Virus record (IMG/VR): IMGVR_UViG_3300009537_000066
Location: 1-38,305 of that record
Length of the DNA: 38,305 nucleotides
Direction: 5' to 3' (one strand)
Source of the DNA: a virus
The position numbers and the translations under genes were made by a program. This document shows, piece by piece, positions 1,749 to 34,023 of the stretch (its first letter is position 1; each line of letters begins with the position of its first letter). Under the pieces are notes generated by a model. The model saw nothing but the letters and a program-made list of their open reading frames with translations, did not search any database and had not been told where the DNA came from.

Positions 1749-1975
1749 AATCACTGCCAAGCATAAATCCTGAAACATTAGTAAAAATGAAAGTGGCTCT
1801 TTCTCAATTAGGGACGGATGCTGAGTTTTTGGCCAGATTTGTAGAAAGTGTCCAAAAAGTAACCAAGGGTTCGGGATTTGGCAAAATAACGGTTTATGTA
1901 CAGGAAAAAAGAGTTAATTTGATAAGAAGCGAAGAGACGCATAGTTTTAGCGATGTTGAAGAAAAGAAATTTTAA
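1745..1975 (+). CDS. Small hypothetical protein after terminase
   Basis: This 76-residue protein has no recognised family. Its N-terminal half looks helical (LVKMKVALSQLG, FLARFVESVQKV) and its C-terminal half has alternating beta-like stretches (KITVYVQEKRVNLI). It starts in an ATGA overlap with terL, so it is translationally coupled. It ends where promoter cassette A begins (-35 at 1956 lies inside its 3' end). A packaging accessory role is suggested only by position. Confidence 0.75.
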   Translation: MKSLPSINPETLVKMKVALSQLGTDAEFLARFVESVQKVTKGSGFGKITVYVQEKRVNLIRSEETHSFSDVEEKKF

Positions 1976-1983
1976 TGTATAAT
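1956..1983 (+). promoter_or_regulatory. Cassette A promoter (upstream of portal)
   Basis: -35 TTGAAG at 1956-1961, 16-bp spacer, -10 TATAAT at 1978-1983 preceded by TG. The predicted start lies at AGGTTAA (1990-1996), a sequence placed 7-8 nt after the -10 in the related cassettes C, D and E. GTTAA and TTAAC (1992-2004) can pair into a small first hairpin before the terminator. Confidence 0.7.
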
Positions 1984-2009
1984 ATGTTTAGGTTAAGTTT
2001 TAACTAACA

Positions 2010-2046
2010 CCACAGTAGGTCGTAAAAGACGAAGCTGTGGTTTTTT
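2010..2046 (+). terminator. Cassette A terminator/attenuator
   Basis: CCACAG (2010-2015) pairs with CTGTGG (2035-2040), with an inner TCGT/ACGA helix, followed by six T at 2041-2046. It lies only about 20 nt after the predicted promoter start and before the portal gene. It could end upstream terL readthrough and also attenuate cassette A transcripts. Confidence 0.8.
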
Positions 2047-2063
2047 AATCAGGAAACAAAAAG

Positions 2064-4067
2064 ATGCCAAAAGAAGAACCTATGGTTCGGGGAACGCCTG
2101 AAGAAAAGGAAGTTTATTGGGAGACAAAAAGACATTATGATATGTCTCGTGAGGATCTTGATAAACGAATCTCCGACTTTAACAAAAAAGACGAACTCTT
2201 CAGAAGCCACATTGATGAGAACGGGTGGCCATATTCTGCAATGGTTTTCGATCCCCGTGTATTTACTGCAATTTATGAAAAGAGTGCAAGACTTCTAGCC
2301 AACAAGCCAAGGGGGAGAATGGTACCCCGTGAGGGAGGGGATGTTCTGGGAGCCAAGATTAATAATAGTATATTAGATTTCCAATGGGATGATTCTGAGA
2401 GAGTAGATGGAGAACCAATGCTCTCTAAATGGGCAAGGATGGATATGAATGCCAGAAAGTATGGAGCTTCATTTGGTCTAGCTAAATGGCATTATGAAAA
2501 GCGTCCCGTTCCAGGGGGTAAAATATCTACGTGGTTTGACGGCAACACATTTACTCCTTGGAACAACCGTGATGTTTTACACAACCCCTCATATTCGTCT
2601 ATCCAAAAGTGGATACAGTTAAGAGAGTGGGTAACTCTTGAGGATCTGCAAAGGATAAACGATACCGCACAAAAGAAACCTATCTATAAAAATTTAGACA
2701 TAATCAAAGATTCCCTTTCAAAAGAAGCTAAGGGAGGGGGAGATATGCGTTCCACGGCATGGCAATCCAAAAACCTCTCGATTAAAGGGCTTTCAGATTT
2801 CAGGGGAAGAGACCCTGTGTTTAAAGTATTCGAATTTGTGACCGAGTACCGAGATGATAGATGGATTAGTTTTGCCCCAAAGTATGGCGTTATTTTAAGA
2901 GATGTTCCCAATCCTTATATTCACGGTAGGATTCCTGTGATCCAACTAAAGTACTATCCCATTGATGAAGATATTTATGGTCTTTCTGAGATAGAACCCA
3001 TTGAAAAACTTCAAAAAGCACTCAACGCTCTTGTCTGCCAATATTTGGATTCTATAAATATGAACCTATATACGCCCATAAAGGTACGTACCGCCTCTGT
3101 ACAACTTCATACTTTAGAGTTTGGTCCCGGAAAGAAGTGGTTAATGAATGACCCGTCAAGTGATGTTATGCCTTATGAGACCTCAGCCACAGGAGTGGCA
3201 GAGTTTGCCCAGACTTACAGGTTTATAGTAGGAGCAATGCAGGAAGCCTTAGGAGAAACAAGCGCTGCCGTTTCCCAGTTGGTCCCAGGTGAGGGAGAAA
3301 GGACTGCAACAGAAATCCGTGAACTTACCCTTCAAAGAAATGTCAGAGATAATTTCAATCAGTTATTCCTATCGGAGGCAATTAAAGATCAAATGATGTT
3401 CTGGTACCAAATGAATCAGCAATTTTATTTCAATGAAAAGAATGAGCAGAAGGTAATAAGGATAGTGGGAAGAGATGCGGTGACTTATTTCGAAAATGCA
3501 GGTCTTTCTGAACAGGGGATATCTGAAGAAACAATGGATAGGCTAACAAGCCCCGAAATGGAAGAGGTCTTTACAGATCCTGGCTTTGATATTAAAAGTG
3601 TAATGGAACCACTTTTCCCTGTTTCTACACCTGAGGGAAAAATACCCAAGATGGTTATAGAAAACGATGGATCTGTAGGACACATGATAATAGAAGAGGA
3701 TGACCTATCAGGAGTTTATGATTATATTCCTGATGTCAGGAGTATGGCTAACCCAGAACCAGCCACTACAAGTGCTCTCACTCAGATGCTTTTGCAGGCT
3801 AAAGACCCATCTGCTATTGCAGCAAGGGCTAAAGAAGGTGTAACATTGAAGTTATCGGAAGTAGAGAAAGACTACTTCGAACTATTAGGCCTTAAGGACT
3901 CGGATAAATATTACGAGAAATTAAGCCCTGAACAAGCAAATGCCGAAATCCAACTTAACAGCCCAGGAGGAGGCCCAGCTCAAGCAGGACCAAATGCTGC
4001 TGGACCTAACGGGGATGGAGGTATACAAGGCGGGACTGAAGCCGTGGCTGGAGGACAAGCGGTCTAA
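2064..4067 (+). CDS. Portal protein
   Basis: This 667-residue protein should form the dodecameric portal ring through which DNA is packaged and which joins head to tail. Family-like features include the N-terminal region with VFDPRVFTAIYEKSARLLANKPRG, the mid-region IEPIEKLQKALNALVCQYLDS, and the segment GETSAAVSQL...GERTATEIREL typical of podovirus-like portals. The C-terminus is low-complexity (Gly/Pro/Ala/Gln) and encodes another gene in a second frame. The ATG has AGGAAAC upstream. Position between terminase and scaffold/capsid genes fits. Confidence 0.9.
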   Translation: MPKEEPMVRGTPEEKEVYWETKRHYDMSREDLDKRISDFNKKDELFRSHIDENGWPYSAMVFDPRVFTAIYEKSARLLANKPRGRMVPREGGDVLGAKINNSILDFQWDDSERVDGEPMLSKWARMDMNARKYGASFGLAKWHYEKRPVPGGKISTWFDGNTFTPWNNRDVLHNPSYSSIQKWIQLREWVTLEDLQRINDTAQKKPIYKNLDIIKDSLSKEAKGGGDMRSTAWQSKNLSIKGLSDFRGRDPVFKVFEFVTEYRDDRWISFAPKYGVILRDVPNPYIHGRIPVIQLKYYPIDEDIYGLSEIEPIEKLQKALNALVCQYLDSINMNLYTPIKVRTASVQLHTLEFGPGKKWLMNDPSSDVMPYETSATGVAEFAQTYRFIVGAMQEALGETSAAVSQLVPGEGERTATEIRELTLQRNVRDNFNQLFLSEAIKDQMMFWYQMNQQFYFNEKNEQKVIRIVGRDAVTYFENAGLSEQGISEETMDRLTSPEMEEVFTDPGFDIKSVMEPLFPVSTPEGKIPKMVIENDGSVGHMIIEEDDLSGVYDYIPDVRSMANPEPATTSALTQMLLQAKDPSAIAARAKEGVTLKLSEVEKDYFELLGLKDSDKYYEKLSPEQANAEIQLNSPGGGPAQAGPNAAGPNGDGGIQGGTEAVAGGQAV

Positions 4068-4257
4068 AAGCTATCCTGATCCACAGCAATTTAAAAGTAC
4101 CGATGAGTTTACCTACGCAGCCCAAGTGGCCTCTATTTATAAAAAGGTCATAGCGGAGCTGTTGAGTTATTTGGAGAATGAAATACCGCAAAAAGTGAAA
4201 GAAATGAACAAAAAAAAGAAAGGAGAAGCTCCCAATTTTGGGATTGGCAGGGGGTGA
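3940..4257 (+). CDS. Small protein overlapping the portal 3' end
   Basis: This 105-residue charged, probably helical protein overlaps the last 128 nt of the portal gene in another frame. The non-overlapping part reads naturally as protein (SYPDPQQF, YAAQVASIYKKVIAELLSYLEN). The overlapped part is also plausible (a Gln/Glu-rich helix), while the portal frame there is low-complexity. The start is uncertain. ATG at 3940 has little SD, whereas ATG at 3994 has AGGA 4 nt upstream and would shorten the protein by 18 residues. Function unknown, perhaps a head-assembly accessory. Confidence 0.75.
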   Translation: MPKSNLTAQEEAQLKQDQMLLDLTGMEVYKAGLKPWLEDKRSKSYPDPQQFKSTDEFTYAAQVASIYKKVIAELLSYLENEIPQKVKEMNKKKKGEAPNFGIGRG

Positions 4258-4261
4258 TTTT

Positions 4262-4516: not shown

Positions 4517-4524
4517 TTAAGGTG

Positions 4525-4533
4525 TGATATAAT
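4525..4533 (+). promoter_or_regulatory. Cassette B promoter
   Basis: Extended -10 TGATATAAT at 4525-4533. The -35 is weak (TTGGGA at 4503-4508, 19-bp spacer), so the extended -10 probably carries it. The start would fall near AGCCAAAG at 4540, the position where the other cassettes carry AGGTTAA. GCC at 4541 and GGC near 4562 could pair. Confidence 0.65.
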
Positions 4534-4561
4534 ACAAAAAGCCAAAGCTATATAAGCAAAA

Positions 4562-4590
4562 GGCCACAGAAGTGTGGTCTTTATTTGTTT
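4562..4590 (+). terminator. Cassette B terminator/attenuator
   Basis: GGCCACA (4562-4568) pairs with TGTGGTC (4573-4579) across a 4-nt loop, followed by a T-rich run TTTATTTGTTT (4580-4590). The next gene's ATG is at 4594, so the T-tract runs almost into the start codon and there is no separate ribosome site. Confidence 0.7.
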
Positions 4591-4593
4591 AAA

Positions 4594-4815
4594 ATGCCAA
4601 TAGTTAAAAATCTACCATCTTCCAAAGACAAGTTTTGGGAGGGAGCAGATGTAAATGTAAATAAATTAGTAAGAAAAAAATGCGAGCACTACTTCGAAAG
4701 AAAAACAGGTTTAATAATATCCTGCAAAAACTGTGGGATGGGCTTCATTCTCTCTGGGGGAAAATTCTACTTAAAGCAAAATCATATTTACAAAGGTAAA
4801 AGATTTGTAATCTGA
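4594..4815 (+). CDS. Zinc-ribbon small protein
   Basis: This 73-residue basic protein has C-E-H-Y-F at its centre and CKNCGMGF further on. It looks like a single zinc ribbon with three Cys plus His ligands. I chose the ATG at 4594; an in-frame TTG at 4585 lies inside the cassette B T-tract. There is no SD between the terminator and ATG. It stands alone between cassette B and a strong hairpin (4809-4844) that includes its stop codon. Its role is unknown, perhaps nucleic-acid binding. Confidence 0.75.
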   Translation: MPIVKNLPSSKDKFWEGADVNVNKLVRKKCEHYFERKTGLIISCKNCGMGFILSGGKFYLKQNHIYKGKRFVI

Positions 4816-4886
4816 GTTGGGGGGTAATTCTCCCACCCCAGATTATAAGTCTGGAAAGCCCGAGTATGCGGCTCGTTAAATCGCAT
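4809..4886 (+). other. Structured leader between zinc-ribbon and scaffold genes
   Basis: A 15-bp imperfect stem (4809-4823 with 4830-4844) surrounds the stop codon of the preceding gene but has no T-tract. It may protect a 3' end or be a weak terminator. Further on, ATGCG (4866-4870) can pair with CGCAT (4882-4886) around a CGAG/CTCG motif just ahead of the AAAGGAGGTGG ribosome site of the scaffold gene. These could tune expression of scaffold and capsid proteins. Confidence 0.5.
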
Positions 4887-7376: not shown

Positions 7377-9830
7377 ATGAAGCCAGAAAGCAAGATTGCC
7401 CTCGGGATGATTGTAAAAGATGATTCCGAAGTAAAAATGTTGGAGCGATGTTTAAACTCCGTTGCCCCATATGTAGATGGTATCTTTCTTACAATTACCC
7501 AAAAACCCTACAAGAAACTTCAGAAACTAGCCAATAAATTCGGTGCCAATGTAGATATAAGACCAGGTGAGTTTGACCACATAGTAAAAAAGAAAGAAGT
7601 CAAGTGGTTAAAGAAATACTTCAAGTACGAACCCCACATTAAGGAGGGTCAAAAAATATTTAAGTTCTCGGAAGCCAGAAATACTAATCTGGATTTTATT
7701 CCCGAAAACTATGGATGGCTTTTTTGGATGGATACTGATGATGTTTTGATTAATGGTGAATTACTTAAAGATTCGGCACAGAAGGCCCTTTTACAAAAGG
7801 CTGAGGCAGCTTTTTATAACTACATCTACCAAGCAGAATTGGAAGATGGGAAGATAAAAAACGTGATTATCCAGCATCTAAGAGAACGGCTGGTAAGAAT
7901 AAACGGAGAATACAAGGGTGTTTACAAATGGATAGGCAATATACATGAAACATTAATAGAACAACGTCCCACCAACAAGATAGAAGACACCAGGATAGAG
8001 GTTCTTCACCTTTCCAGCCCCGACAGGTTCAGATTAGCTCTTGAGAGAAACATGGCTGTACTTGAACACGAGATTTACAATGTTAAAGGAAAAGATCCTA
8101 GGCCGCTTTATTATTTAGGAAAAGCCTATTTTGACCTACACAATCCCGAAGCCCATAAAAGGGCGGAATCTTTAATATTAGAATACCTATCTCCTGAAGG
8201 GCATGAGAAAAATATGAGCGGATGGAAACAGGAACGTTCACAGGCCTGGGAATATTTGGGAGAGATATACCGTGAAAGAGGACATTACAACAACTCTATT
8301 AAAGCACTACATAATTCCCTAGTAGAATATCCCCAATTTCCTTCTACCTATTTCGCTTTGGCGGTAACTCACATGTTAAAAGAAGAGTGGGATACTGCAA
8401 GGTTTTGGGCGATAATGGGTTCTAAGGTTCCGCCCGCTAAAAGCACTCTTGTGTCCAATCCAAGAGATGTGGAATCCCGTGCTTATGAGGTAATATACAA
8501 CGCAGCCATTAAGACCAATCGAATAGATGAAGCACATAGTGCCTGTGAAAGACTTAAGGGCTTATATCCCGATGATCCTAGAATAGATGAACAGTGGAAG
8601 TTTATAAACGAAACTCGTGAAGTAAGAGACCAGCTTAAAAACTACATGGGGTTGGCCAATTATCTAAAAAATAAGGGTGAGGGAAACAAAGTACGGCCTC
8701 TCCTCTCTGCAGCCCCCTCTAGTTTAGAAGGAAACCCTCTTGTGGTTAAAATGAGACAGAGTCTTTATCCTCCCAAAAACTGGGAAAGTAATTCGATAGC
8801 TCTTTATTGTGGTCCTCAATTTACGGCTTGGGACCCGTCAGTACTTGATAACGAAGGGGCAAGTTTTATAGGTGGAAGTGAAGAGGCAGTAATATTTATG
8901 AGCCGTGAGCTCGCTAAACTGGGATATAAAGTAGTAGTTTATGGTGATCCTGTCAAAGAGGGTATTCATGGGGGTGTAGAGTATTTGTCTCATTACAAAT
9001 TCAATGTTCAGGATACATTTAATATTGTCATCTGGTGGAGATCAATGGCATACACAGATATGAATGTCAAAGCTAAGAAACAATATCTATGGTGTCATGA
9101 TGTTCAGAATCAAACCGAGTATACAAAAGAAAGACTTAAAAGGCTAGACAAAGTAATTGTACTTTCGGAAGCACACCGTAAAAATATCCCCAACGTACCT
9201 GATGATAAAATATTTGTGTCCACGAATGGTTATGTGGAACACTACCCCAAGACAAAATCCGAGAATAATCCCAAACAAGCTTTATGGACTTCAAGCTACG
9301 ATAGAGGACTGGAACACTTACTCGAAATATGGCCTGAAGTTATAAAGGAAGTGCCGGATGCCGAGCTTAATGTTTTTTACGGATGGAAGCTTTTTAAACA
9401 TTTTAATAAGGATAATCCTGAAAGAATGGCTTGGATGAAAAAGATAGAAGATTTGATGAAGCAAAAAGGGGTAACTCATCATGGACGAGTTAGTCAAAAG
9501 GAGATTGAGAAGTGGTACAAGAAATGTGGTGTTTGGGCTTATCCTACACATTTTTATGAGATTAACTGTATTTCAGCTATCAAGGCTCAACTTTGGGGTT
9601 CAGTGCCCGTCTGCATCAATTACGCAGCCTTAGAAGAAACCGTAGATAGTGGTTTTAAAGTAGAGGGTGACATTTGGGATAAAAAGGTAAAAAAGGAGTA
9701 TACTGAGAAACTGATACAGGCACTTAAAGACAGCGAGTGGCAGAAAGAAGAAAGAAAGAAAGGCATCGAACACGCCAAGAAATACGGATGGGATAAAATA
9801 GCAGCTTCTTGGAAGGAGGTGTTTAAATGA
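7377..9830 (+). CDS. GT2-TPR-GT4 fusion glycosyltransferase
   Basis: This 817-residue enzyme seems to carry two transferase modules. Residues 1-230 are a GT-A (family 2-like) domain opening KIALGMIVKDD and holding the metal-binding DTDD (119-122). Residues about 235-410 are helical repeats of TPR type (PLYYLGKAYFDL, AWEYLGEIYRERGHYN). Residues about 470-817 are a GT-B (family 4-like) domain with IGGSEEAVIFMSREL, the nucleotide-side TNGYVEHYP, and the E-x7-E-like region YEINCISAIKAQ (about 728) near the end. It probably adds two sugars in turn to a glycan or a virion protein. It heads the island and ends ATGA with the next gene. Confidence 0.88.
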   Translation: MKPESKIALGMIVKDDSEVKMLERCLNSVAPYVDGIFLTITQKPYKKLQKLANKFGANVDIRPGEFDHIVKKKEVKWLKKYFKYEPHIKEGQKIFKFSEARNTNLDFIPENYGWLFWMDTDDVLINGELLKDSAQKALLQKAEAAFYNYIYQAELEDGKIKNVIIQHLRERLVRINGEYKGVYKWIGNIHETLIEQRPTNKIEDTRIEVLHLSSPDRFRLALERNMAVLEHEIYNVKGKDPRPLYYLGKAYFDLHNPEAHKRAESLILEYLSPEGHEKNMSGWKQERSQAWEYLGEIYRERGHYNNSIKALHNSLVEYPQFPSTYFALAVTHMLKEEWDTARFWAIMGSKVPPAKSTLVSNPRDVESRAYEVIYNAAIKTNRIDEAHSACERLKGLYPDDPRIDEQWKFINETREVRDQLKNYMGLANYLKNKGEGNKVRPLLSAAPSSLEGNPLVVKMRQSLYPPKNWESNSIALYCGPQFTAWDPSVLDNEGASFIGGSEEAVIFMSRELAKLGYKVVVYGDPVKEGIHGGVEYLSHYKFNVQDTFNIVIWWRSMAYTDMNVKAKKQYLWCHDVQNQTEYTKERLKRLDKVIVLSEAHRKNIPNVPDDKIFVSTNGYVEHYPKTKSENNPKQALWTSSYDRGLEHLLEIWPEVIKEVPDAELNVFYGWKLFKHFNKDNPERMAWMKKIEDLMKQKGVTHHGRVSQKEIEKWYKKCGVWAYPTHFYEINCISAIKAQLWGSVPVCINYAALEETVDSGFKVEGDIWDKKVKKEYTEKLIQALKDSEWQKEERKKGIEHAKKYGWDKIAASWKEVFK

Positions 9831-10021
9831 AATTTGAATGTCCAGGACACGAAGGTAAATGTGAATTTTGTAAAAAGGAGGGTGGTGCCCCACGTTCAGT
9901 GGAGGGAATGCCCGAAGTTGACAGGACAACAGGTAAGAGATTAATAGATAATTGTTGTAAAGCCTGTAGGGGGAATATGCAAGATGCAGCACGGGAGTAT
10001 CACAGAACGTCTATATCATGA
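9827..10021 (+). CDS. Cys-rich zinc-ribbon-like small protein
   Basis: This 64-residue protein has CPGHEGKCEFC near the N-terminus and CCKAC near residue 45, a four-or-more-Cys metal site with two knuckles. Its start sits in an ATGA overlap with the fusion transferase, and its end overlaps the next methyltransferase (ATGA), so it is translated within the island. Function unknown. It might be a small partner of one of the enzymes. Confidence 0.75.
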   Translation: MKFECPGHEGKCEFCKKEGGAPRSVEGMPEVDRTTGKRLIDNCCKACRGNMQDAAREYHRTSIS

Positions 10022-10617
10022 CCTCAAAAGATTTATTCGAAAGAGTAAGGCCTGCTTGGGAAAAATACGACATAAAAAAAGCAAAACCCTACCTAAAAGG
10101 AGTCGGTCAGACAGCAATGAACGACATTCTAAACAGGGAGGGTTCGGGTTATTACCAATTCCTCCCATGCCTTATTTCATACTTGAAGCCGAAGCAAATA
10201 GTAGAACTTGGTGGTGCTATGGGTGCCTCCGCACTCATGATGTTGTCTTCACTCCCCTCGAAAAGCAGGTTATATTCTATAACTCTACCCGAAAACGGAT
10301 TGGAATTTTCCTACATCAAAAAGGACTACAAACAATTTGTGCAAGTTGTGGGAGACGATTTAAAATTGAAGAATTGGCCCAAGAGTTTAGATCTCTCCAA
10401 AACTGATTTGTGGTTTTTTGACAGTGAACATACTTATGAACAATTACACGCAGAGATTGAACTTTACAAAAAGTATTTCAAAAAGGGAGCTGTGATATTG
10501 GTGGATGATATCCACCTATCTTCTAGCATGTTTAAAGCATGGTTGGAGTTTCCCGGAAATAAATTCGATGCCACTGCGTGGTTACACTGGAGTGGGTTTG
10601 GAATTATAACCATATGA
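10018..10617 (+). CDS. SAM-dependent methyltransferase (MT24-like)
   Basis: This 199-residue class I methyltransferase has motif I VELGGAMGAS (62-71), a central DLWFFDSEHTYEQ and the later VDDIH. The SEHTYE...VDDIH pattern is typical of Methyltransf_24/CmcI-like enzymes, which often methylate sugars or small molecules. In this island, methylation of a glycan built by the neighbouring transferases is likely but inferred. It is coupled on both sides by ATGA overlaps. Confidence 0.85.
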   Translation: MTSKDLFERVRPAWEKYDIKKAKPYLKGVGQTAMNDILNREGSGYYQFLPCLISYLKPKQIVELGGAMGASALMMLSSLPSKSRLYSITLPENGLEFSYIKKDYKQFVQVVGDDLKLKNWPKSLDLSKTDLWFFDSEHTYEQLHAEIELYKKYFKKGAVILVDDIHLSSSMFKAWLEFPGNKFDATAWLHWSGFGIITI

Positions 10618-11105
10618 GAACACAAACAAAGACATTTTTAGATCAATTCTTGGGAAAATATAAAGGTATTTCATCAGCCCTTGATGTTGGTTCCAGAAAT
10701 GTATCTGGTACGGTAAAGGAAAACTTTACCAAAAGAGGAATAACTTACACAGGTTTTGACATGATAAAGGGAGACAATGTGGATGTTGTCGGAAATGGAC
10801 ACGAATTGGACAAGTATTTCAAAAAAGGACAATTTAATATGATAGTTTGTTTTGACACACTTGAACACGATGATGAGTTTTGGAAAACCGTTCAGCAAAT
10901 AAAAAACCTTTTAAAAAAGGGAGGATGGATGCTAATAGGAGTTCCGAGCAGATATTGTCCCAAACACGACCACCCTCATGATTACTGGAGATTTATGGAG
11001 GATGGTGTCAGATCCTTCTTTAAAGGTTTTGAAGAGGTTAACATTCAAATAGATTACAACGATAAAACTGAGGATGAGATATATGGTTGGGGTAGGAAAC
11101 TATGA
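10614..11105 (+). CDS. SAM-dependent methyltransferase (MT11-like)
   Basis: This 163-residue class I methyltransferase has SALDVGSRNVSG (21-32) as SAM-binding motif I, FDTLEH (80-85) as motif II-like, and LKKGGWMLIGVP as the strand after helix E. The fold resembles Methyltransf_11 enzymes. The start at ATG 10614 is set by the ATGA overlap with the preceding methyltransferase. It is rather short and its substrate is unknown; the context suggests sugar O-methylation. Confidence 0.83.
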   Translation: MRTQTKTFLDQFLGKYKGISSALDVGSRNVSGTVKENFTKRGITYTGFDMIKGDNVDVVGNGHELDKYFKKGQFNMIVCFDTLEHDDEFWKTVQQIKNLLKKGGWMLIGVPSRYCPKHDHPHDYWRFMEDGVRSFFKGFEEVNIQIDYNDKTEDEIYGWGRKL

Positions 11106-11920
11106 AGATAGCACTAATTTGGTGGTTTGATAAGGCTAGTTCGGTTTATGACAACTGGAGAGATGGTGTAAGGGGTGCAATGGATGTTATTGGGGAAAAT
11201 CATAAAGTAGGATGGTATTTGGATAAAACAATGCCTGATCCCAACAGTGTGGATGTACTTCTGTTTTGGTCCAGTAGCGAGGAGGATTACTTTGATTTGC
11301 TTGAGAGATATCCTAATGAGAAAAAGGCACTTCTTTTAACAACCAATCCCCGAAATCTTAATAATCTTCGTAAACTTGATGTTATATTCTGTGAAAGCCA
11401 AGTTGTGTATGATGAAGTTAGAATGCACGGACTTCACGCCGTAAAGGCATTCGGAACTGATATAGACTTTTTCAAGCCTGGTAAAGTTAAAAAAGATGTC
11501 GAGTACTTTTATCCGGCAACCTTTAGCCCATGGAAACGACAGGGTGAAATAGCGTATTTGGGTAAGGATCTGCTTTGTGTAGGAACCATTCAACCAGACG
11601 GAAAAGAAGAATATGAGGTGTGCAAAAAAGCGGGTGTTCAAATAAAAGAAGGATACTTTCCGGTAAAGAAAATACGTGACTATTATCAAAGAACTAAAAA
11701 CATAATCATACCCGCAGTACATGGGTCAGAAAGAACTGTTTTAGAAGCCATGAGTTGCAACATATTACCGACAGTGATTCACAAAAGAGAAAACGCCAAA
11801 GCACAAACTTATTTGGACGAATATAAAAACAGCAGATGTAAAACACCGAGAGAGTTTGTAATCAAAAACTATTCTCATTACATATATGCCAAAAAAATAC
11901 TCGAAGGAATTGAAGATTAG
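11102..11920 (+). CDS. GT-B (family 4-like) glycosyltransferase
   Basis: This 272-residue protein is a compact GT-B enzyme. The C-terminal half has the nucleotide-sugar-binding signature GSERTVLEAMSCNILPTV (about 208-225), with two Glu in E-x-x-x-x-E spacing. The N-terminal Rossmann half is short (MKIALIWWFDKASSV, then VDVLLFWSS). It is expected to transfer a sugar from an NDP donor. It is joined to its neighbours by ATGA at the start and a 35-nt overlap with the next gene. Confidence 0.82.
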   Translation: MKIALIWWFDKASSVYDNWRDGVRGAMDVIGENHKVGWYLDKTMPDPNSVDVLLFWSSSEEDYFDLLERYPNEKKALLLTTNPRNLNNLRKLDVIFCESQVVYDEVRMHGLHAVKAFGTDIDFFKPGKVKKDVEYFYPATFSPWKRQGEIAYLGKDLLCVGTIQPDGKEEYEVCKKAGVQIKEGYFPVKKIRDYYQRTKNIIIPAVHGSERTVLEAMSCNILPTVIHKRENAKAQTYLDEYKNSRCKTPREFVIKNYSHYIYAKKILEGIED

Positions 11921-12647
11921 TGTAGTTATGCCAGTTTGGGTGCTGGATGATGACCTGTATAGATTGACTGCAACGTCTATCCAATCTCTTAAGCTTGTTG
12001 AAGATTACAATGCTGAGATGATAATAGTGGACAATGCTTCCCCAATAGGCGGGGACCAGCTGATGGCACAGTCAGATATCTATATTCGGAACAGGGTCAA
12101 CTTGGGTTATCCCAAGGCTGTCAACCAGGGTATTAAATTGTCATCAGGTGAGCTTGTATGTGTGGCTAATAACGATATCAAAGTATCACCAAACTATATC
12201 AAAGTATCTCAAGAAGTGTTTACTAAACTACCTAAGGCAGGATCTCTTCATTTTAAAATGCTCTATTATGATGAACCTTTTAATTTAGGAGATAGTGTGT
12301 GGGACCATGGCAAGGAGAAATGGTGTCATGGATCGTTCTTCGTATTTAGAAGAAAAGCTTATGATGATATAAAGGGAATAGATGAAGGATACGGATTGGG
12401 AGGATATGATGATTACGATTGGCAGTATAGAATGAGAAAGAAGGGTTGGAAAACGGCCTATACCAATGGTGCAGCTTTTCAACACAAAGACTCTTCTACA
12501 CAGAACTTACTAGACCAAGATGAACGTAAAACTTCTGACAACAAAAATAGAGAGTACTTTAAAAAAAGGCATGGTGAATATCCTGATACTCTTTGGAACA
12601 AGATGTATCCTGAACAAGTAGATATTCCCTGGCGACCTTTCCCATGA
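11886..12647 (+). CDS. GT2 family glycosyltransferase
   Basis: This 253-residue GT-A enzyme opens ISVVMPVW, followed by MIIVDNASP and the acceptor-side NLGYPKAVNQGI. The metal site region is VANNDIKV (about 92-100) in place of a classical DxD. Later GYDDYDWQYRMRKKGWK is the ED-xx-RW-like region of family 2. It is most like rhamnosyl- or hexosyl-transferases, but the donor cannot be read. It overlaps the previous gene by 35 nt and the sulfotransferase by 4 nt. Confidence 0.88.
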   Translation: MPKKYSKELKISVVMPVWVLDDDLYRLTATSIQSLKLVEDYNAEMIIVDNASPIGGDQLMAQSDIYIRNRVNLGYPKAVNQGIKLSSGELVCVANNDIKVSPNYIKVSQEVFTKLPKAGSLHFKMLYYDEPFNLGDSVWDHGKEKWCHGSFFVFRRKAYDDIKGIDEGYGLGGYDDYDWQYRMRKKGWKTAYTNGAAFQHKDSSTQNLLDQDERKTSDNKNREYFKKRHGEYPDTLWNKMYPEQVDIPWRPFP

Positions 12648-13156
12648 TATTACTAAAAAACAGTATATTTTACGATATCCCTAAAACAGGTTGTAGTTGG
12701 GTGGCAGAAGGCCTAGTGTATACGGGCATGGGACAGTTTATAGAAAAAACATCACACAGACCACCCAAGAAGAGTGATAAGAAAAAGCACGGTAAAAAAT
12801 ATACCTTTACATTTGTTAGAAACCCTGTTGATTGGTATAGGTCTTTTTATGCGTCCCGTGTTGATAAAAAACTAGCCGAGCCGTTTAAGTTTTATGAATT
12901 TTTAATAGAGATGTATTCAGGAATGGAGATATTTGGTAGAAAGTGGACAACTCTCAAGGACTATCTAAAACCTTTTATGAAGTGCGACTTTGTTGGAAGA
13001 ACTGAGAATCTCAGGCTCGACCTTAAGAAAGCCATGGAAATGTTTGATGAGAGAATGGAGGGAAATCTGTTAGACAGACCCAAGGTCAATGTTTCTAATT
13101 ATAAAGTTGGTCCTGATAAAGAATCTATAAAATTAATTAAAAGAATGGAAATATGA
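12644..13156 (+). CDS. Sulfotransferase (PAPS-dependent)
   Basis: This 170-residue protein has the 5'-phosphosulfate loop at IPKTGCSW (12-19) and the 3'-phosphate region TFVRNPVDWYRSFY (56-69), the two PAPS-binding signatures of carbohydrate sulfotransferases. It is short compared with cellular enzymes but keeps both sites. It would move sulfate from PAPS to a sugar hydroxyl. No PAPS synthesis gene is here, so the donor must come from the host. It lies between two GT2 genes with ATGA overlaps, which points to a glycan substrate. Confidence 0.82.
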   Translation: MILLKNSIFYDIPKTGCSWVAEGLVYTGMGQFIEKTSHRPPKKSDKKKHGKKYTFTFVRNPVDWYRSFYASRVDKKLAEPFKFYEFLIEMYSGMEIFGRKWTTLKDYLKPFMKCDFVGRTENLRLDLKKAMEMFDERMEGNLLDRPKVNVSNYKVGPDKESIKLIKRMEI

Positions 13157-13992
13157 AAATTAGCGTAATGAATCTAACAGCAAGGTACGGCGGATTTGAT
13201 ATCCTTCGAGCTGACCTAGAAAGACAGACTATGACCGAGTTTGAGCTAGTTATAGTAGATGCTTTGTGGGAAGAAAGAGAAAAAGAGGTAAGGGAATATT
13301 TTAAAGATTTTGATTTAAAATATATAAAACAAAGCAAGAAGAAAAAGGGTGCTTATTCTAACTTAGCACACGCTGACAACGAGGGATTTAGAAACTGCGA
13401 GGGAGAATTAATAGTTTGTTTACAGGATTACATCTGGATACCCCACAACTCTTTCGAAAAATACTGGTATGCCTATAAAGAAAAAGGAGATTGTCTGGTA
13501 GGCGCTGTGGGTCATCAATACTGCTACCCAGGAAAAGATGATATCAAAGACCCTGAAGGAAAAATAACTGTATTTGGTGAACCTTTTACCGGAAAGCCTG
13601 AGAACCAATGTTGGGCAGACCCAAGAATGAGAACGGATCAGGGAACTTTCTATGAAACAGCACCTATTAACTGGGAGTTATCATACGCTTCAATACCAAG
13701 AAAAGTTATTTACGAGTTAGGGGGTATGGATGAGGAGTATGACTTTCAGGGTTTTGCCTACGACAACACCAACATAGCCCAGCGGGCAGAATTTGCAGGA
13801 TATAAAACATATCTCGATCAATCTCATGAATACATGGCACTCAGTCACGATGATTGGGCAATGAGTAGTCACAAGAAAGACAAAGCACCTGACATAGCCA
13901 GATTTCACATCGAAAGAATGAAGGATATAATTCATGGAAGATTTCCGTTAAAATTGAATTACCTGGACCCAGATGATAAAATTAAGAAGTAA
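13153..13992 (+). CDS. GT2-like glycosyltransferase
   Basis: This 279-residue GT-A enzyme has an N-terminal strand MKISVMNLT, then RQTMTEFELVIVD. LIVCLQDYIWIP stands where the DxD-like metal motif is expected. Acceptor-region LGGMDEEYDFQGFAYDN matches the G-G-x-D-E-x-F pattern of family 2 enzymes. It is the last enzyme of the coupled island and ends 8 nt before the next gene. The classical DxD is altered, so the metal ligand set may differ. Confidence 0.82.
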   Translation: MKISVMNLTARYGGFDILRADLERQTMTEFELVIVDALWEEREKEVREYFKDFDLKYIKQSKKKKGAYSNLAHADNEGFRNCEGELIVCLQDYIWIPHNSFEKYWYAYKEKGDCLVGAVGHQYCYPGKDDIKDPEGKITVFGEPFTGKPENQCWADPRMRTDQGTFYETAPINWELSYASIPRKVIYELGGMDEEYDFQGFAYDNTNIAQRAEFAGYKTYLDQSHEYMALSHDDWAMSSHKKDKAPDIARFHIERMKDIIHGRFPLKLNYLDPDDKIKK

Positions 13993-14000: not shown

Positions 14001-14420
14001 ATGGTAAATTATTCAGTAAAATCAAAACCTTTGCCGACGAGAGAAACTAGAGTTAGTGATGACTGGCCCAATAGTCCCAAGTTTCAGGAGTTTGCAACGT
14101 TTCTTGGTTTACCAGCAGAAAAAGATGCAAGGGGTATTAATTGGAGACATGACAAAAAAACAGCCCAAAAGATTGAGGAAATTTACGCATGGGGGAAGTT
14201 AGTATCGGACAGTGAAGACCCGGTTGAGATAATGCTTTCTGTTAAACAAGCCATTAGAGACTTGGGTGTTCAAGTAAGGGGAAAAACATTGGTTGACCAT
14301 CTTTGGGGATGGACACAGCTTGATAGTAAGGCACAGGGGCTTAGAAACCAAATAGATAAGATCGACAAGGAAAAACAACTATATGAGCTATATGATGAAA
14401 TAACCGAAGATGCTAGCTAG
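14001..14420 (+). CDS. Hypothetical structural-region protein, paralogue of the gene at 20738
   Basis: This 139-residue protein shares a clear pattern with the protein encoded at 20738: SPKFxEFAxFLGL, W, IYxWG, KTLVDxLW, and T..DS..Q in the same order. Both then continue into a charged tail. This copy is shorter at the C-terminus. No Pfam family is recognised. It follows the glycan island and begins the tail block, and its end overlaps the next gene. There is little SD before the ATG. A tail assembly or adaptor function is a guess. Confidence 0.78.
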   Translation: MVNYSVKSKPLPTRETRVSDDWPNSPKFQEFATFLGLPAEKDARGINWRHDKKTAQKIEEIYAWGKLVSDSEDPVEIMLSVKQAIRDLGVQVRGKTLVDHLWGWTQLDSKAQGLRNQIDKIDKEKQLYELYDEITEDAS

Positions 14421-14708: not shown

Positions 14709-14737
14709 TTGCATTCTATAAAAAACAGTGTTATTAT
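14709..14737 (+). promoter_or_regulatory. Cassette C promoter
   Basis: -35 TTGCAT at 14709-14714, 17-bp spacer, -10 TATTAT at 14732-14737 with an extended TGT before it. AGGTTAA stands at 14745-14751, 8 nt after the -10, at the predicted transcript start. CCTCGAGG at about 14754 forms a palindrome between start and terminator. Confidence 0.65.
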
Positions 14738-14765
14738 ATTTCAAAGGTTAAACCCTCGAGGCAAA

Positions 14766-14788
14766 CCCGCTGAGATGCGGGATTTTTT
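14766..14788 (+). terminator. Cassette C terminator/attenuator
   Basis: CCCGC (14766-14770) pairs with GCGGG (14777-14781) over a 6-nt loop, followed by A and six T (14783-14788). It lies about 20 nt past the predicted promoter start and 19 nt before the next ATG. Confidence 0.75.
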
Positions 14789-20247: not shown

Positions 20248-20672
20248 TAGAAGGGGTTACTGTGGATTGGAGGTCGTCGCCGAGGATAATTACAGTTCCA
20301 AGTCCTCTTACAGAAATAACAATAACAGACCTTCAGGATACATTACTTGACATAGAGGATAGTGATGAGGGTATTTTGTGGCCTCATTTAAGAAACACTG
20401 CTGGTGGTGAAGATCTGGGGGGAGGAGTTTTTGTTTCCCTAACGATGGAATTACAAAATGCAAAGCTGGCATTCGAGGCTAGGGGTGGGCCAGACTATGT
20501 TGCTTGTGTTGTGTCTGGTGGAAATTTGGTGGCTGTCGATGATGTGGGAGACAGTGCAGATCCCATACAACCAACCGATTATACACAAGTAACAATAGCT
20601 CAATCTGCCTCCGCCACATCTTTAGATACAGACTCACTTTCTCTCGTTAAGTTTCTTGCTTTACAGGAATAA
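20238..20672 (+). CDS. Small virion-associated protein
   Basis: This 144-residue beta-rich protein begins IEGVTVDWRSSPRIITVPSPLTEITI, a pattern I have seen in tail or neck proteins of uncultured phages. LWPHLRNTAGGEDLGGGVFV and LQNAKLAFEARGGPDYVACVVSGGNL follow. It starts within the end of the coiled-coil gene and ends at cassette D. No enzyme motif. Confidence 0.72.
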   Translation: MAIIEGVTVDWRSSPRIITVPSPLTEITITDLQDTLLDIEDSDEGILWPHLRNTAGGEDLGGGVFVSLTMELQNAKLAFEARGGPDYVACVVSGGNLVAVDDVGDSADPIQPTDYTQVTIAQSASATSLDTDSLSLVKFLALQE

Positions 20673-20683
20673 TGTGCTATAAT
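20656..20683 (+). promoter_or_regulatory. Cassette D promoter
   Basis: -35 TTGCTT at 20656-20661, 16-bp spacer, -10 TATAAT at 20678-20683 with extended TGC. AGGTTAA is at 20691-20697, 8 nt after the -10. GTTA/TAAC (20693-20710) can form a small hairpin around AAAGCTTT just ahead of the terminator. Confidence 0.75.
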
Positions 20684-20712
20684 TTGACAAAGGTTAAAAG
20701 CTTTAGCTAACA

Positions 20713-20737
20713 CCCGCCAAAAGTGGTGGGGTTTTTT
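20713..20737 (+). terminator. Cassette D terminator/attenuator overlapping a ribosome site
   Basis: CCCGCC (20713-20718) pairs with GGTGGG (20725-20730), then six T (20732-20737) directly followed by ATG 20738. GGTGGGG is also the only SD-like tract for that gene, so terminator folding would hide the ribosome site. Confidence 0.8.
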
Positions 20738-21253
20738 ATGTCTGATTTAAAACCACTTACTTTTAGTATCGGAAAGGGGTCATGGACACTTTCCCCCAAA
20801 TTTCATGAATTTGCGGACTTTCTAGGATTAATAGAAAGGGATGCAAAAGGTGTAGTGTGGAAAGTAGACGAAAGGACTAAGGAGAGATTGGGACAAATAT
20901 ATCTTTGGGGAGTGTTTAAAGCAAAAACTACAGATATAGACAAGGTTAAAGAGCAGGTTTACGAATTACAAAGAAAAGTGGGGAACAATTGGACAGAGAA
21001 AACCTTAGTAGATAGGCTTTGGGATCAAACAATGTTTGATTCTAGCTTTCAAAAAAATTTAGATGGGCTTTTAAAATACGACAAAAAAAAGAAAGAAGAA
21101 AAAGAGACAAAGGTAGACAGACCTAAAAAAGCTAAACCAGCACAAGGAAAAGAACTTGGAAAGGTTGAGCCAATCAAAAAAGAACCAGAAAGGGAGCTGA
21201 AAATAAAAGAGAGCCCTGGGGGGGAACTCAAATCAGAACCAATTAAAATATAA
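20738..21253 (+). CDS. Hypothetical protein, paralogue of the gene at 14001
   Basis: This 171-residue protein has an N-terminal domain that matches the product of the gene at 14001 in order and spacing (SPKFHEFADFLGL, VVWKVDE, IYLWG, KTLVDRLWDQT). The extra C-terminus (about 115-171) is very Lys/Glu/Pro-rich and probably disordered. ATG 20738 was chosen over in-frame GTG codons lying in the cassette D hairpin. Its stop overlaps the next ATG (TAATG). Function unknown. Confidence 0.78.
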   Translation: MSDLKPLTFSIGKGSWTLSPKFHEFADFLGLIERDAKGVVWKVDERTKERLGQIYLWGVFKAKTTDIDKVKEQVYELQRKVGNNWTEKTLVDRLWDQTMFDSSFQKNLDGLLKYDKKKKEEKETKVDRPKKAKPAQGKELGKVEPIKKEPERELKIKESPGGELKSEPIKI

Positions 21254-22662: not shown

Positions 22663-23747
22663 TGTACGACAAATCCAAACTAACACCAAAGAATGAGCCT
22701 AAAGATAGAATTGAAATAGAAATTGGAGACTTCAAGCAACCCGAATTTATACCACAGGTTAAGTTAATGAGGTGGGATAATGAGGTCAATGTCTCCATCC
22801 GTCAGCAAAGCGAAGGTACTCCCAATTTTTATGAGGTAGATGAGGGGTATGAATTCGAAGTTATCTTAACCGAGAAACCCGTAAGTAATAAAGTAAGGTT
22901 TACTATCAACCACAAGGAACTTAACTTTTATTACCAGCCCGAATTAACCCAAGAGGAGATTGACGAAGGTGCAGTAAGACCAGATGAAGTAGTAGGAAGC
23001 TACGCTGTATACCATAAGTCTAAAGGTGGAATGAACCGAGCCGATGGAATGGAATATAAGGCAGGTAAAGCATTTCATATCTACAGACCCTACGCCCAAG
23101 ACGCAAATGGAATGGGAGTTTGGTGTGATCTAAAAATAACAGGTGGATATCTAAACATAACCATTCCTCAAGACTTTTTAGACCAAGCAGCATATCCAGT
23201 AATAGTAGATCCTACTTTTGGTTATACGAGCATAGGAGGGTCAGGTAATGGCACACAACTAGATGCAGACAGAATTTGGGGTGCAGATGATACTGGAGCA
23301 ACAGGACATCATGACGCTCCAGAAGATGGCAATGTTTCATCTATAACTTTTTATACAGGTGGTTCCGATGCAATCAGACCCGTTTTGTATGATGCTGATG
23401 ATTCTTTTGCTCTTGTTACCTATGGAGACGAAATCACAACGAGTGTTGGGGCTGATTGGAATAATATGTCCGTTACTTCAGCACCTATCACTTCAGGAAC
23501 AAGATACCCCATGTGTTTTTGGACAGGAACCGATAATGTTCTCTATTACTACGATTCTGTTACCGATGATGATGTAAGGGGAGATTCTTTTACTTATCAC
23601 TCAACAAATGCTCCCGCAGACCCAGCAGCTTTTACATCTACAATTGCTGATAGAAGAATGTCCATCTACGCCACCTATACAGCAAGTGGTGGAGGAACTA
23701 CTGAAGATAAATCATTCATGACAACCAATAAATTTTGGGGAGGTTGA
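22662..23747 (+). CDS. Tail fibre-like protein
   Basis: This 361-residue protein has an N-terminal half (1-180) resembling a capsule- or envelope-type beta domain that ends DFLDQAAYPVIVDPTFGY. This hinge sequence precedes variable C-terminal domains in many phage and bacterial surface proteins. The C-terminal half (190-345) is a Thr/Ser/Asp-rich jelly-roll-like unit. The hinge suggests exchangeable C-terminal tips. Its end overlaps the cassette E -35. Confidence 0.72.
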   Translation: MYDKSKLTPKNEPKDRIEIEIGDFKQPEFIPQVKLMRWDNEVNVSIRQQSEGTPNFYEVDEGYEFEVILTEKPVSNKVRFTINHKELNFYYQPELTQEEIDEGAVRPDEVVGSYAVYHKSKGGMNRADGMEYKAGKAFHIYRPYAQDANGMGVWCDLKITGGYLNITIPQDFLDQAAYPVIVDPTFGYTSIGGSGNGTQLDADRIWGADDTGATGHHDAPEDGNVSSITFYTGGSDAIRPVLYDADDSFALVTYGDEITTSVGADWNNMSVTSAPITSGTRYPMCFWTGTDNVLYYYDSVTDDDVRGDSFTYHSTNAPADPAAFTSTIADRRMSIYATYTASGGGTTEDKSFMTTNKFWGG

Positions 23748-23772
23748 TAGATTTTCAATTGAATGATATACT
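23744..23772 (+). promoter_or_regulatory. Cassette E promoter
   Basis: -35 TTGATA at 23744-23749, 17-bp spacer, -10 TATACT at 23767-23772 with extended TGA. This is the best -35/-10 pair of the cassette family. AGGTTAA is at 23780-23786, 8 nt after the -10. Confidence 0.78.
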
Positions 23773-23800
23773 ATGCAAAAGGTTAATCTTTTAAGAAACG

Positions 23801-23824
23801 CCAACGGGAAACCGTTGGTTTTTT
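23801..23824 (+). terminator. Cassette E terminator/attenuator with GAAA tetraloop
   Basis: Perfect 7-bp stem CCAACGG/CCGTTGG (23801-23807 and 23812-23818) closed by a GAAA tetraloop, followed by six T. It begins about 21 nt after the predicted promoter start. The next gene begins 52 nt further on with its own GGGGTGATT ribosome site. Confidence 0.88.
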
Positions 23825-23875: not shown

Positions 23876-24256
23876 ATGGCAGACCTAACAGACTTACAAT
23901 CAGCAAGCGATAAGCATATTTTAAACGATGATGCTACGCCAACGCTAAAATTAACTAACACCAACACCACTTTAAGCAGCTACGCTCTTGAAGTTAATGG
24001 TATGGATTTGAATGTTTCAGCTAGCAGGATTCCTGCAGCTAACGCAACTGTCATTAGTTACAACGTGGCTGGTGCTTCTAGGGCAAGCGGAGCAGTTTTG
24101 GGATTTGAGGCTGGAGCCTTAGTATCTCTTACATCCGTTTTATCAACCACAGGAGGTGCAGCAGGAACATATGGACTTAGAGTTTTAGTGGGTGATGGTG
24201 AATTCGGATGGATTCCTGTTTACCCAGATGGTGCTGTAACAGCAGCAGCTTTGTAA
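23876..24256 (+). CDS. Small virion protein
   Basis: This 126-residue Ala/Thr/Gly-rich protein has a strong ribosome site (ATGGGGTGATTAAACATG). The beta-rich middle (SYALEVNGMDLNVSASRIP) and hydrophobic end (TYGLRVLVGDGEFGWIPV) resemble small head decoration or tail proteins. It leads the connector/tail tube operon after cassette E. No confident family. Confidence 0.72.
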   Translation: MADLTDLQSASDKHILNDDATPTLKLTNTNTTLSSYALEVNGMDLNVSASRIPAANATVISYNVAGASRASGAVLGFEAGALVSLTSVLSTTGGAAGTYGLRVLVGDGEFGWIPVYPDGAVTAAAL

Positions 24257-32500: not shown

Positions 32501-33959
32501 AACAACTGGTGGACTTTTGGGTACTCTAAACCCTGGTCAGTCTATAGCCAAAAGGTTTACTAATATAAGAACAGGTGCTGAGGTAGATCAACTATTTGAT
32601 GAAGTCGACGGCTTCAGGACAGAAAGTGCTACTGCTTCTCTTAAAGATAGACGTGAAGCAGAGAAACTATTTACCGAATTAAAAGATCAGGGTCCTGCGA
32701 TAGCCAAACAAAGACTTCTACAAATAGCTAGAGAGAATCCTGAATTAGTAGAAGATGTTTTGGATATAGCCGAGGCGGATTCTCGGGGCATAACGGCACT
32801 CGACAGGTCTATTAAATCTTTACCAGTTAAAGACGGGTCAAGAGCTAAATTTGTATTTTCTCAACTTAATAAAATGCAAAGTGGTGAGGAAAAGAAAAAC
32901 TACTTGTTGGGACTAGCAAGGAAGAAAGTTATTTCGGAGAGTGTATTAGAACAAGTATTATTTTTACAAGAACAAAAGACCAAGCAAGCAAAACAATCAC
33001 TTGAAACCGAAAGGAAGGACTTTATAGCAGCAGCTCCACCAACAATAAACAAGAATGTAGCCAGTGAATTGTTTGACTCGGTTGTGGATGAGTTGGCAAA
33101 AGCCAATCCCTTCGATCCCCCGGAAGCACAGGCAAAGGCAGGGCCTCTGGGTGAAATGACTTTTGTAATAGAAAAGGATAGGGGTGTAACGAGTGAGACG
33201 GTAGAAAGGCAGAGTATAAAAGATTTCTTAATGGAAAAGATAAAAGTGATAAGGGATAAGATTTTTGGAGGTTCCGATGATGAAACAGTAGAAGATCCAG
33301 AACCCACTCAAGCACCCTTACCGACAGAAATACCAACTGAAACCCCCACGCCCACACCTCAGTTGAGAGTTAATACACCATCATATTACAGAAGTGAGGA
33401 CTCTAATCAAATAGTAATACAAAGTGGGGGACAAAATGAAGACGTTAATGTGATAGATGTCCCACCAGAGATCTCAGAAACTATCACGAACGTGTTTGGA
33501 AGGGATCTGGCACTTGAAGCAGCAAGAGTGCTACATCATCAGTACGGCGAACAAGTAAAGGGGTACGGTCAGGGAGAGAATACAGAATTCAAGATAAGCA
33601 ACATAACAGTTTCCAACGAAGGACACGACACACCTCTAACAGAAGAAACAAGGAAAGTGCTGGATAAAAAGGGTGACGATGGCTATTACCACTCTTTTGA
33701 TAAAGGCTTGTTTAGGATAAATAGCAGAAGATTTGAGGACATAATGCGTGATTACCGTCCAGGATATAGAGACGCTATGTACGAAGCGGGGATAATCGAT
33801 GATCCCTACACCGACAAACCAGTAACGAAAGCTGTCATTCAGAAATACTGGAACGAAATGGATGACTTGGAAAAGAATGTCAAAATGGCTAAAATAATAT
33901 ACGAGATTAGTGGTAGTTGGGAGCCGTGGTTTGCCGCCCCAATAGATTTAATTAGATAA
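29586..33959 (+). CDS. Giant internal virion protein with LPD38-like and lysozyme-like domains
   Basis: This 1457-residue protein begins with a basic N-terminus. Residues about 600-830 resemble large polyvalent protein-associated domain 38 (GLNVGFIPANIVRDIADAIF, LNQIVPFLNANVQGVERMFRL) with a hydrophobic segment near 795. Residues about 1215-1260 form a Pro/Thr linker. Residues about 1300-1457 look like a lysozyme/SLT domain with catalytic Glu candidate E1331 (GQGENTEF), then DKGLFRINS and a late SWEPW. It is likely ejected with the DNA and opens peptidoglycan. A 102-codon insert between direct repeats lies at 319-420. Confidence 0.82.
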   Translation: MPLKNLRAGLTNLAGRIRRPVDDLVEKVRKQNFRTVIQKPLKTTIEQSRKYREVGDKISQFGMPKEGESLGKRLLKAPLAPLTTLVGGTMYGIGSTAERFAKPRETLSVFKKAPTLKPLSEGLIGTFEEPTKAGIALDVFGAGLDVTDVGRYGLIGLFGAGIRETPGVIAKSGKTASVLDDISEGFEAARAARKGTKKIPKSVDVRTQLLDRLTPIFELTKKAGKELPTEVNPYKRMRLIAGIGGKIDATLNQGLAPVLQRNANNLEDLSRLLVLQRNQELIERGVKTKFSAAEVSEGLLELKAKYGATDNLSQGRLSVTQQPSVKGGVRPKEAGQSFFVDARGQAIDVAEHKAEAFGKSDLRVVTTPNELNIETKRGFLPEQIDTLKRMFNKIKSKNPNAKIIADTPQGSGTFKSVDELVTQQPLKESKVGISNGFKALEQSAQEVRDYGNSLLKLLNESGIIDNKSYKQILAKNEMYVPFRIVDYISDSAESGKYARTSFNVAKQDVIKALKGSEKAVADPLESLVERTGKVISLVERNNALKSLVNLQDELPDLIKKAGKTTEKGFDTVNLFENGKNVKYALPSEVAAAIKNLDQQTSNVLIDILRPQARLLRTGATGLNVGFIPANIVRDIADAIFSETTERGLRGAGELLASYPRAIFSALKRDDLYRTWQKAGGAQSTFTSQLLDVPKQTVGRLAGTQRKGVLETIKSPLEFLNRVGEESTRIARFQSGLEKGEATLEAAFKARDITVDFAKSGNTVKLLNQIVPFLNANVQGVERMFRLAKSNPKQAAVGLGILSGFPATMLYLHNRRFEDYKDIPQFEKDQNWIIIADDRSELEKVEGEPIKGIKIPKGHFTQPFTAMVESALEAIGSDDPKALGTLAQRTASNISPIGITPREIGSSILPPLFQAGVETIFNQNLFTGYPVVPRSLQNVSPEEQYRETTPKGFIAAGKALGVSPLKLQNIVRTTTGGLLGTLNPGQSIAKRFTNIRTGAEVDQLFDEVDGFRTESATASLKDRREAEKLFTELKDQGPAIAKQRLLQIARENPELVEDVLDIAEADSRGITALDRSIKSLPVKDGSRAKFVFSQLNKMQSGEEKKNYLLGLARKKVISESVLEQVLFLQEQKTKQAKQSLETERKDFIAAAPPTINKNVASELFDSVVDELAKANPFDPPEAQAKAGPLGEMTFVIEKDRGVTSETVERQSIKDFLMEKIKVIRDKIFGGSDDETVEDPEPTQAPLPTEIPTETPTPTPQLRVNTPSYYRSEDSNQIVIQSGGQNEDVNVIDVPPEISETITNVFGRDLALEAARVLHHQYGEQVKGYGQGENTEFKISNITVSNEGHDTPLTEETRKVLDKKGDDGYYHSFDKGLFRINSRRFEDIMRDYRPGYRDAMYEAGIIDDPYTDKPVTKAVIQKYWNEMDDLEKNVKMAKIIYEISGSWEPWFAAPIDLIR
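30540..30860 (+). repeat. 15-bp direct repeats bounding a 306-bp in-frame insert
   Basis: GTCACACAACAGCCA occurs at 30540-30554 and 30846-30860, exactly 306 bp (102 codons) apart, within the giant virion gene. Both copies read VTQQP in the same frame. The interior encodes a compact unit (FFVDARGQAIDVAEHKAEAF ... NAKIIADTPQGSGTF). Removing one repeat plus the interior would leave an intact frame. Confidence 0.85.
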
Positions 33960-33964
33960 TTATG

Positions 33965-33973
33965 TGTTATAAT
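33965..33973 (+). promoter_or_regulatory. Cassette F promoter for the lysis operon
   Basis: Extended -10 TGTTATAAT at 33965-33973, identical to the one at 211. No clear -35. AGGAAGA at 33981 occupies the place of AGGTTAA in other cassettes. Confidence 0.68.
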
Positions 33974-33990
33974 ACTAACAAGGAAGACTT

Positions 33991-34023
33991 GAGTCGAACT
34001 TTTTAAGGTTGGACTCTTTTTTT
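33991..34023 (+). terminator. Cassette F terminator/attenuator before the lysis genes
   Basis: GAGTC-G-AAC (33991-33999) pairs with GTT-G-GACTC (34008-34016), followed by seven T (34017-34023) that run directly into ATG 34024. It could stop late transcription from the virion operon before lysis genes. Confidence 0.82.

Follow-up and report, generated by a model that had tools for sequence, protein, structure and literature searches.

In a set of short leaders found in uncultured tailed phages, the motif at the predicted RNA start is not a stand-alone signal, but one side of a short helix, the other side being the first bases of the 5' arm of the adjacent intrinsic terminator. The arrangement of promoter, box and terminator, the presence of bases common to both possible folds, the covariation between the two strands, and the location of the leaders at late operons are all observed. 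It is likely that these leaders constitute a RAT-like antiterminator/terminator switch serving a late-gene regulon, a reading from which the factor, promoter use, termination, readthrough and timing described below are derived as predictions.

The window, i.e., the whole IMG/VR record under study (38,305 bases), is a tailed-phage contig whose genes for terminase, portal, major capsid, glycosyltransferase and virion proteins all lie on the + strand. Its positions 1-25000 matched nothing closely in the phage collection; among cultured or complete relatives, the best capsid match reached 36% identity and no portal match was obtained. As for the host, the capsid homologue was absent from the genome collection and the terminase homologues were too distant. 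The comparison set consisted of 17 contigs, possibly fragments and with no completeness estimates, 16 of which are related or look-alike phages. Relatives were gathered by terminase and capsid searches, and three contigs (G008, G009 and G010) were added by a motif scan. The relatives form a clade of uncultured phages with terminase, portal, scaffold-like and capsid genes in common; G008 and G009 were absent from the capsid search results. Regarding other gene content, a glycosyltransferase-like gene block (7377-13992) lies within the structural region of the window and has a counterpart in relatives, while the protein encoded at 35437-36423 has a twin-arginine-like signal start (SRRDFLKLAG), which is unusual in a phage.

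An earlier note on this DNA had described six cassettes at operon boundaries (A to F; Table 1), each composed of a -10, AGGTTAA or an AG-purine variant at the predicted RNA start, an intrinsic terminator and a gene. The sequences are indeed located there, and cassettes A, C, D and E show the complete series: a -35-like TTG, a -10 with AGGTTAA 6-7 nt beyond it, and then hairpin, T-run and gene. B and F are looser members of the set. Describing cassette B as an AG-purine variant is incorrect, since its architecture is that of the others in a different sequence, with its own GCC and GGC pairing around an inner hairpin. Cassette F has the promoter, a small hairpin (CAAG-GAAGA-CUUG) and the terminator, with no outer helix clearly inside the transcript. 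A further promoter was correctly described as lacking the hairpin. The gene after cassette D (20738-21253) and the one at 14001-14420 encode proteins with like openings (KFHEFADFLGL and KFQEFATFLGL, respectively), which suggests that they may be paralogous.

Table 1. Positions of the cassette elements in the window.
Feature	Position	Strand	Sequence and context
Promoter without leader hairpin or terminator	211-219	+	TGTTATAAT; precedes gene at 239
Cassette A promoter	1956-1983	+	TTGAAG 1956-1961, TATAAT 1978-1983
Cassette A antiterminator	1991-2011	+	box GGT 1991-1993; 3' strand ACC 2009-2011, shared with terminator
Cassette A inner stem	1996-1998 and 2003-2005	+	AGT/ACT; loop TTTA
Cassette A intrinsic terminator	2009-2046	+	hairpin 2009-2041, T-run; portal gene next, at 2064
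Cassette B -10	4528-4533	+	TATAAT, TG upstream; no clear -35
Cassette B antiterminator	4541-4564	+	box GCC 4541-4543; 3' strand GGC 4562-4564, shared with terminator
Cassette B inner stem		+	GCT/AGC; loop ATATA
Cassette B terminator	4559-4590	+	hairpin 4559-4582, imperfect T-run; gene at 4594
Cassette C promoter	14709-14737	+	TTGCAT 14709, TATTAT 14732-14737
Cassette C antiterminator	14746-14767	+	box GGT 14746-14748; 3' strand ACC 14765-14767
Cassette C inner hairpin		+	CC-TCGA-GG; one C.C mismatch
Cassette C terminator	14766-14788	+	hairpin 14766-14781, then ATTTTTT; gene ATG ~14808
Cassette D promoter	20656-20683	+	TTGCTT 20656, TGC-TATAAT 20678-20683
Cassette D antiterminator	20692-20714	+	box GGT 20692-20694; inner AGC/GCT, loop TTTA; 3' strand ACC 20712-20714
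Cassette D terminator	20709-20737	+	hairpin 20709-20733, T-run; ATG immediately next, 20738
Cassette E promoter	23744-23772	+	TTGATA 23744, TGA-TATACT 23767-23772
Cassette E antiterminator	23781-23802	+	box GGT 23781-23783; inner TCT/AGA, loop TTTA; 3' strand GCC 23800-23802
Cassette E terminator	23800-23824	+	hairpin 23800-23819, T-run; gene at 23876
Cassette F, whole	33965-34023	+	TGT-TATAAT 33968-33973; mini-hairpin CAAG-GAAGA-CTTG 33979-33991
Cassette F terminator	33991-34016 (hairpin)	+	T7; ATG at 34024; outer helix doubtful

The order of these elements departs clearly from chance. AGGTTAA followed by T6 within 45 bases occurs four times on the + strand of the window and never on the - strand, and the reversed control pattern has 0 occurrences in it. 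The order -10, AGGTTA(A), T6 is found four times (all on the + strand) versus a mean of 0.075 and a maximum of 1 in shuffled sequences. Since AGGTTAA alone is not enriched in the window (12 found versus 8.6 expected), the signal corresponds to the arrangement and not to the heptamer. When all contigs are considered, with -10 scores as consensus matches, a -10 lies immediately upstream of 42 of the 59 late-strand intergenic terminators at a score threshold of 6.0 (11% with shuffled upstream sequence), and of 28 of the 59 at a threshold of 7.0 (1.3%). On the opposite strand, this is the case for 1 of 25 intergenic terminators; the conventional order, in which the promoter lies downstream of the terminator, applies to only 1-2 of the 59. 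The cassettes of the window stand at operon boundaries, and the same order recurs at operon starts in the related or look-alike contigs. In most cassettes, an ATG follows within a few bases of the U-run, so that a ribosome-binding site could hardly fit in between.

The helix formed by box and terminator arm encloses a small hairpin. The box, located at about +2, is GGT in most cassettes, and covarying box/arm pairs include GGU/ACC, GCC/GGC, GCU/AGC, CUC/GAG and GUC/GAC, among others. Within the window, the outer helix is GGU/ACC in A, C and D, GCC/GGC in B, and GGU/GCC in E; the corresponding inner hairpins are AGU-UUUA-ACU (A), GCU-AUAUA-AGC (B), CC-UCGA-GG (C), AGC-UUUA-GCU (D) and UCU-UUUA-AGA (E). 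Hence, while the hairpins do all differ, as had been noticed before, they differ in a compensatory manner; and AGGTTAA is not a fixed +1 motif kept while the hairpins drift, for the box changes along with the start of the terminator.

This pairing was evaluated in 43 cassettes by means of a structure-free test, in which the bases 4-17 nt after the -10 were paired with those around the terminator start. The mean pairing energy was -3.18 kcal/mol for cognate pairs versus -2.10 kcal/mol for permuted pairs and -2.54 kcal/mol for pairs permuted within genomes (0 of 20,000 permutations in both cases), and the effect was unchanged by dropping any genome or redundant arms. As a control, 21 terminators without a good promoter showed no pairing effect (p 0.14). 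Furthermore, the RNA as it would exist before the 3' arm is made gives better folds with its own leader than with shuffled ones (z -6.1), and the full nested structure appears in 26 of the 43 folds versus 7.6 expected (maximum 15).

Forty structures, written out by eye with the help of folding and each confirmed to be present in its genome, show 15 different combinations in the outer helix and 20 in the inner one. Over the 39 distinct rows, the share of cells that pair is 99.6% versus 58.7% when shuffled, all six pairs carry two-sided changes, and the covariation score is 1.094 versus 0.254 shuffled and up to 0.25 when slid, counts that are biased towards the structure because it was chosen by eye on the same sequences; on two milder measures, 46 and 20 of 500 shuffles did as well. 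Among 36 cassettes, 100 of the 108 bases on the 3' side of the outer helix also belong to the terminator stem, with median energies (standard parameters) of -3.35 kcal/mol for the antiterminator and -13.25 kcal/mol for the terminator. An Rfam search of the window cassettes yielded no match, apart from one chance match at E 0.75.

Regarding their distribution, the order promoter, terminator and gene was found in G001, G003, G010, G014, G015, G016, G017, G018 and others, often at the position of window cassette A, that is, between terminase and portal. A scan of IMG/VR for TATAAT-AGGTTAA-T6, similar to the one proposed in the earlier note, returned mostly chance matches without hairpins and a few genuine cases (G008, G009 and G010). 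In two contigs with early-type genes, G013 and G015, cassettes stand solely ahead of late operons, with none found in the early region. Contig G009 carries eight cassettes with a 3-bp hairpin and the loop AAWUA, whose arms differ yet are always complementary; a scan for its motif found a complementary stem plus terminator in G009 only. In the same contig, two complete antiterminator-terminator units occur in tandem (~12,977 and ~13,028) before a capsid-like gene, an arrangement that would suit regulated stops. In the G008 set, the inner hairpin is missing. Cassettes of one phage or sub-lineage tend to have a loop in common, while loops differ between lineages: AGAAC is common to G010, G015, G016, G017 and G019, UAGAA-type loops occur in G003, G013 and G018, and those of G014 are UU-rich. 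In the window they are mixed, with UUUA in A, D and E, UCGA in C, AUAUA in B and GAAGA in F. Since no such cassettes were found in the complete relatives MW202524 and MW202497 (34-36% capsid identity) or in the capsid relatives of G009, the known range of the cassettes is narrow.

In the earlier note, a promoter running straight into a terminator was taken as a possible attenuator or antitermination site, and this idea has gained in substance: box and mini-hairpin make up a possible antiterminator that shares bases, and covaries, with the terminator. Two features of an attenuator can be read from the sequence: (i) an intrinsic terminator lies between the promoter and the first gene; and (ii) an alternative helix uses bases of the terminator stem and is kept by compensatory change. 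In the mechanism that we propose, the cassette promoter would drive a leader of approximately 40-60 nt with two mutually exclusive folds. RNA polymerase would start at the box, so the box-arm helix could form first. In this second conformation, the RNA 5' end (mostly the GGU of AGGUUA) would pair with the opening 3-4 bases of the terminator 5' arm and enclose a hairpin of 3-4 bp with a loop of 4-5 nt; at about -3 kcal/mol, it would be too weak to win unaided. By default, the emerging 3' arm would displace the weak helix, and the intrinsic terminator (about -13 kcal/mol) would halt the polymerase just ahead of the first gene of the block, shortly before its first codon. A trans-acting, probably phage-encoded RNA-binding protein would read the loop and the internal bulge and clamp the antiterminator; the foot of the terminator would then stay open and the polymerase would read into the late operon. 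Expression of the late, particle-building genes thus probably waits for a factor that stabilises the hairpin. Because the same element fronts several late operons and was not encountered in the early region of G013 and G015, one factor could switch the whole late regulon; that loops are common within a phage or sub-lineage and different between lineages points to a phage-encoded partner.

As to the identity of this factor, neither a NusG-type (PF02357)/LoaP protein nor a CAT_RBD (PF03123) protein was found in the 17 possibly fragmentary contigs, in searches whose controls matched; the ANTAR (PF03861) search gave no match and the control genomes were equally silent. Two small conserved proteins lie beside cassettes. 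The one encoded right after cassette B (4594-4815) is CxxC/H-containing, zinc-ribbon-like, present in 13 contigs and without a Pfam family. The other, encoded in the gap between terminase and cassette A (1745-1975), belongs to a family present in 13 contigs and is modelled as a helix-helix-beta hairpin. Its constant place beside cassette A makes it a candidate, albeit a speculative one, for the switching factor; against this role, only a weak DUF2292-like match, in one member, and no structural match were obtained.

Other explanations must be weighed against the covariation. It is conceivable, albeit unlikely, that RNA polymerase is modified and the RNA is not refolded, with a Q-type factor acting at the promoter, or an N/put-type factor acting on the leader hairpin, so that the polymerase disregards the terminator. 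AlpA and lambda-type Q systems likewise present a promoter, a short leader, a terminator and genes (PMC9371919), and the mini-hairpin resembles boxB, and the loop in window cassette F is GAAGA; however, neither the Q- nor the N/put-type scheme needs pairing between leader and arm, and yet this pairing covaries. We consider quite improbable a translational control in which the hairpin by the start codon gates the ribosome and the U-run is a ribosome-binding enhancer instead of a termination signal. The closeness of ATG and U-run would suit it, as would the frequent lack of a good Shine-Dalgarno sequence in the first genes after window cassettes, although other genes have AGGAGGTGA; but the U-run adjoins the stem in a terminator-like manner even where the gene starts 20-50 nt further on (A, C and E), and the 3' arms are not generally Shine-Dalgarno-like.

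The position at operon boundaries would also agree with plain operon punctuation, that is, a terminator that closes the preceding operon and overlaps the promoter of the following one, with no regulated switch. This is very improbable: in nearly every case the terminator comes after the promoter and would block its own operon, and the leader covariation would be left unexplained. Finally, a promoter that leads straight into a terminator could have small RNAs of about 50 nt as its main product, but every site differs in sequence while box-arm complementarity stays, a start codon comes directly next in most cassettes, and a small-RNA source does not explain the covariation, all of which leaves this option with hardly any probability.

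With less assurance than for the switch itself, we lean towards regarding the cassettes as a new family of RNA switches, in which a phage-encoded RNA-binding antiterminator would stabilise a transcript-start hairpin that invades the terminator of each operon, and so turn on a dispersed late regulon, with loops diversifying in a boxB-like manner as a lineage-specific key. Nothing equivalent was found in a literature search on phage cassettes, antitermination and RAT-type leaders that covered a minority of subscription journals. Late phage genes are usually under the control of a sigma factor, the phage's own polymerase, or a single Q-type antiterminated promoter. Running the late programme through a repeated terminator/antiterminator leader would differ from these solutions and, if confirmed, this new family would make available a ready-made set of compact RNA switches. 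Since the covariation pinpoints the bases involved, the model lends itself to direct testing, and relatives with early genes on the contig (G013 and G015) are a place to look for the factor.

Among known systems, the PeSLs of T4-type phages are likewise repeated units made up of a promoter and a stem-loop/terminator. They are, however, early and recombinogenic elements, whereas the cassettes are late and their box and terminator covary; to our knowledge, no mutually exclusive pairing has been described for PeSLs. Lambda nut (boxA/boxB), HK022 put, and Q/AlpA resemble the cassettes in that their antitermination elements are located at, or just after, the promoter, and boxB hairpin loops are phage-specific. 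However, these systems operate via RNA polymerase: AlpA and Q do so starting at the promoter (PMC9371919), and put too works through the polymerase (PMC9378689). In contrast, the cassette leader pairs with one adjacent terminator, in a unit repeated at many late operons.

LoaP leaders (PMC12691694) similarly contain a small hairpin ahead of an intrinsic terminator, with factor-dependent readthrough, but that hairpin is of the UNCG type and apart from the terminator, and LoaP is a NusG paralog, of which none was found here. In ANTAR leaders (EutV, PMC8934654), a small loop-recognised stem-loop overlaps the terminator stem and is repeated at several terminators, as in our case; the cassettes have one hairpin, mostly with penta- or tetraloops, instead of two hexaloops. 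Cassette leaders differ from RAT in that they are very short, with the hairpin at the transcript start, belong to phage late operons, and have neither an Rfam match nor a CAT_RBD protein in the contigs. As in BglG/SacY/LicT leaders, where the terminator foot overlaps the RAT (e.g., NagY, PMC9981650), they present a small imperfect 5'-leader hairpin whose 3' side overlaps the terminator foot, so that both folds are mutually exclusive, and one protein may serve several leaders. Membership of the RAT, LoaP or ANTAR families is not claimed, but the logic of the cassettes is that of RAT and ANTAR leaders.
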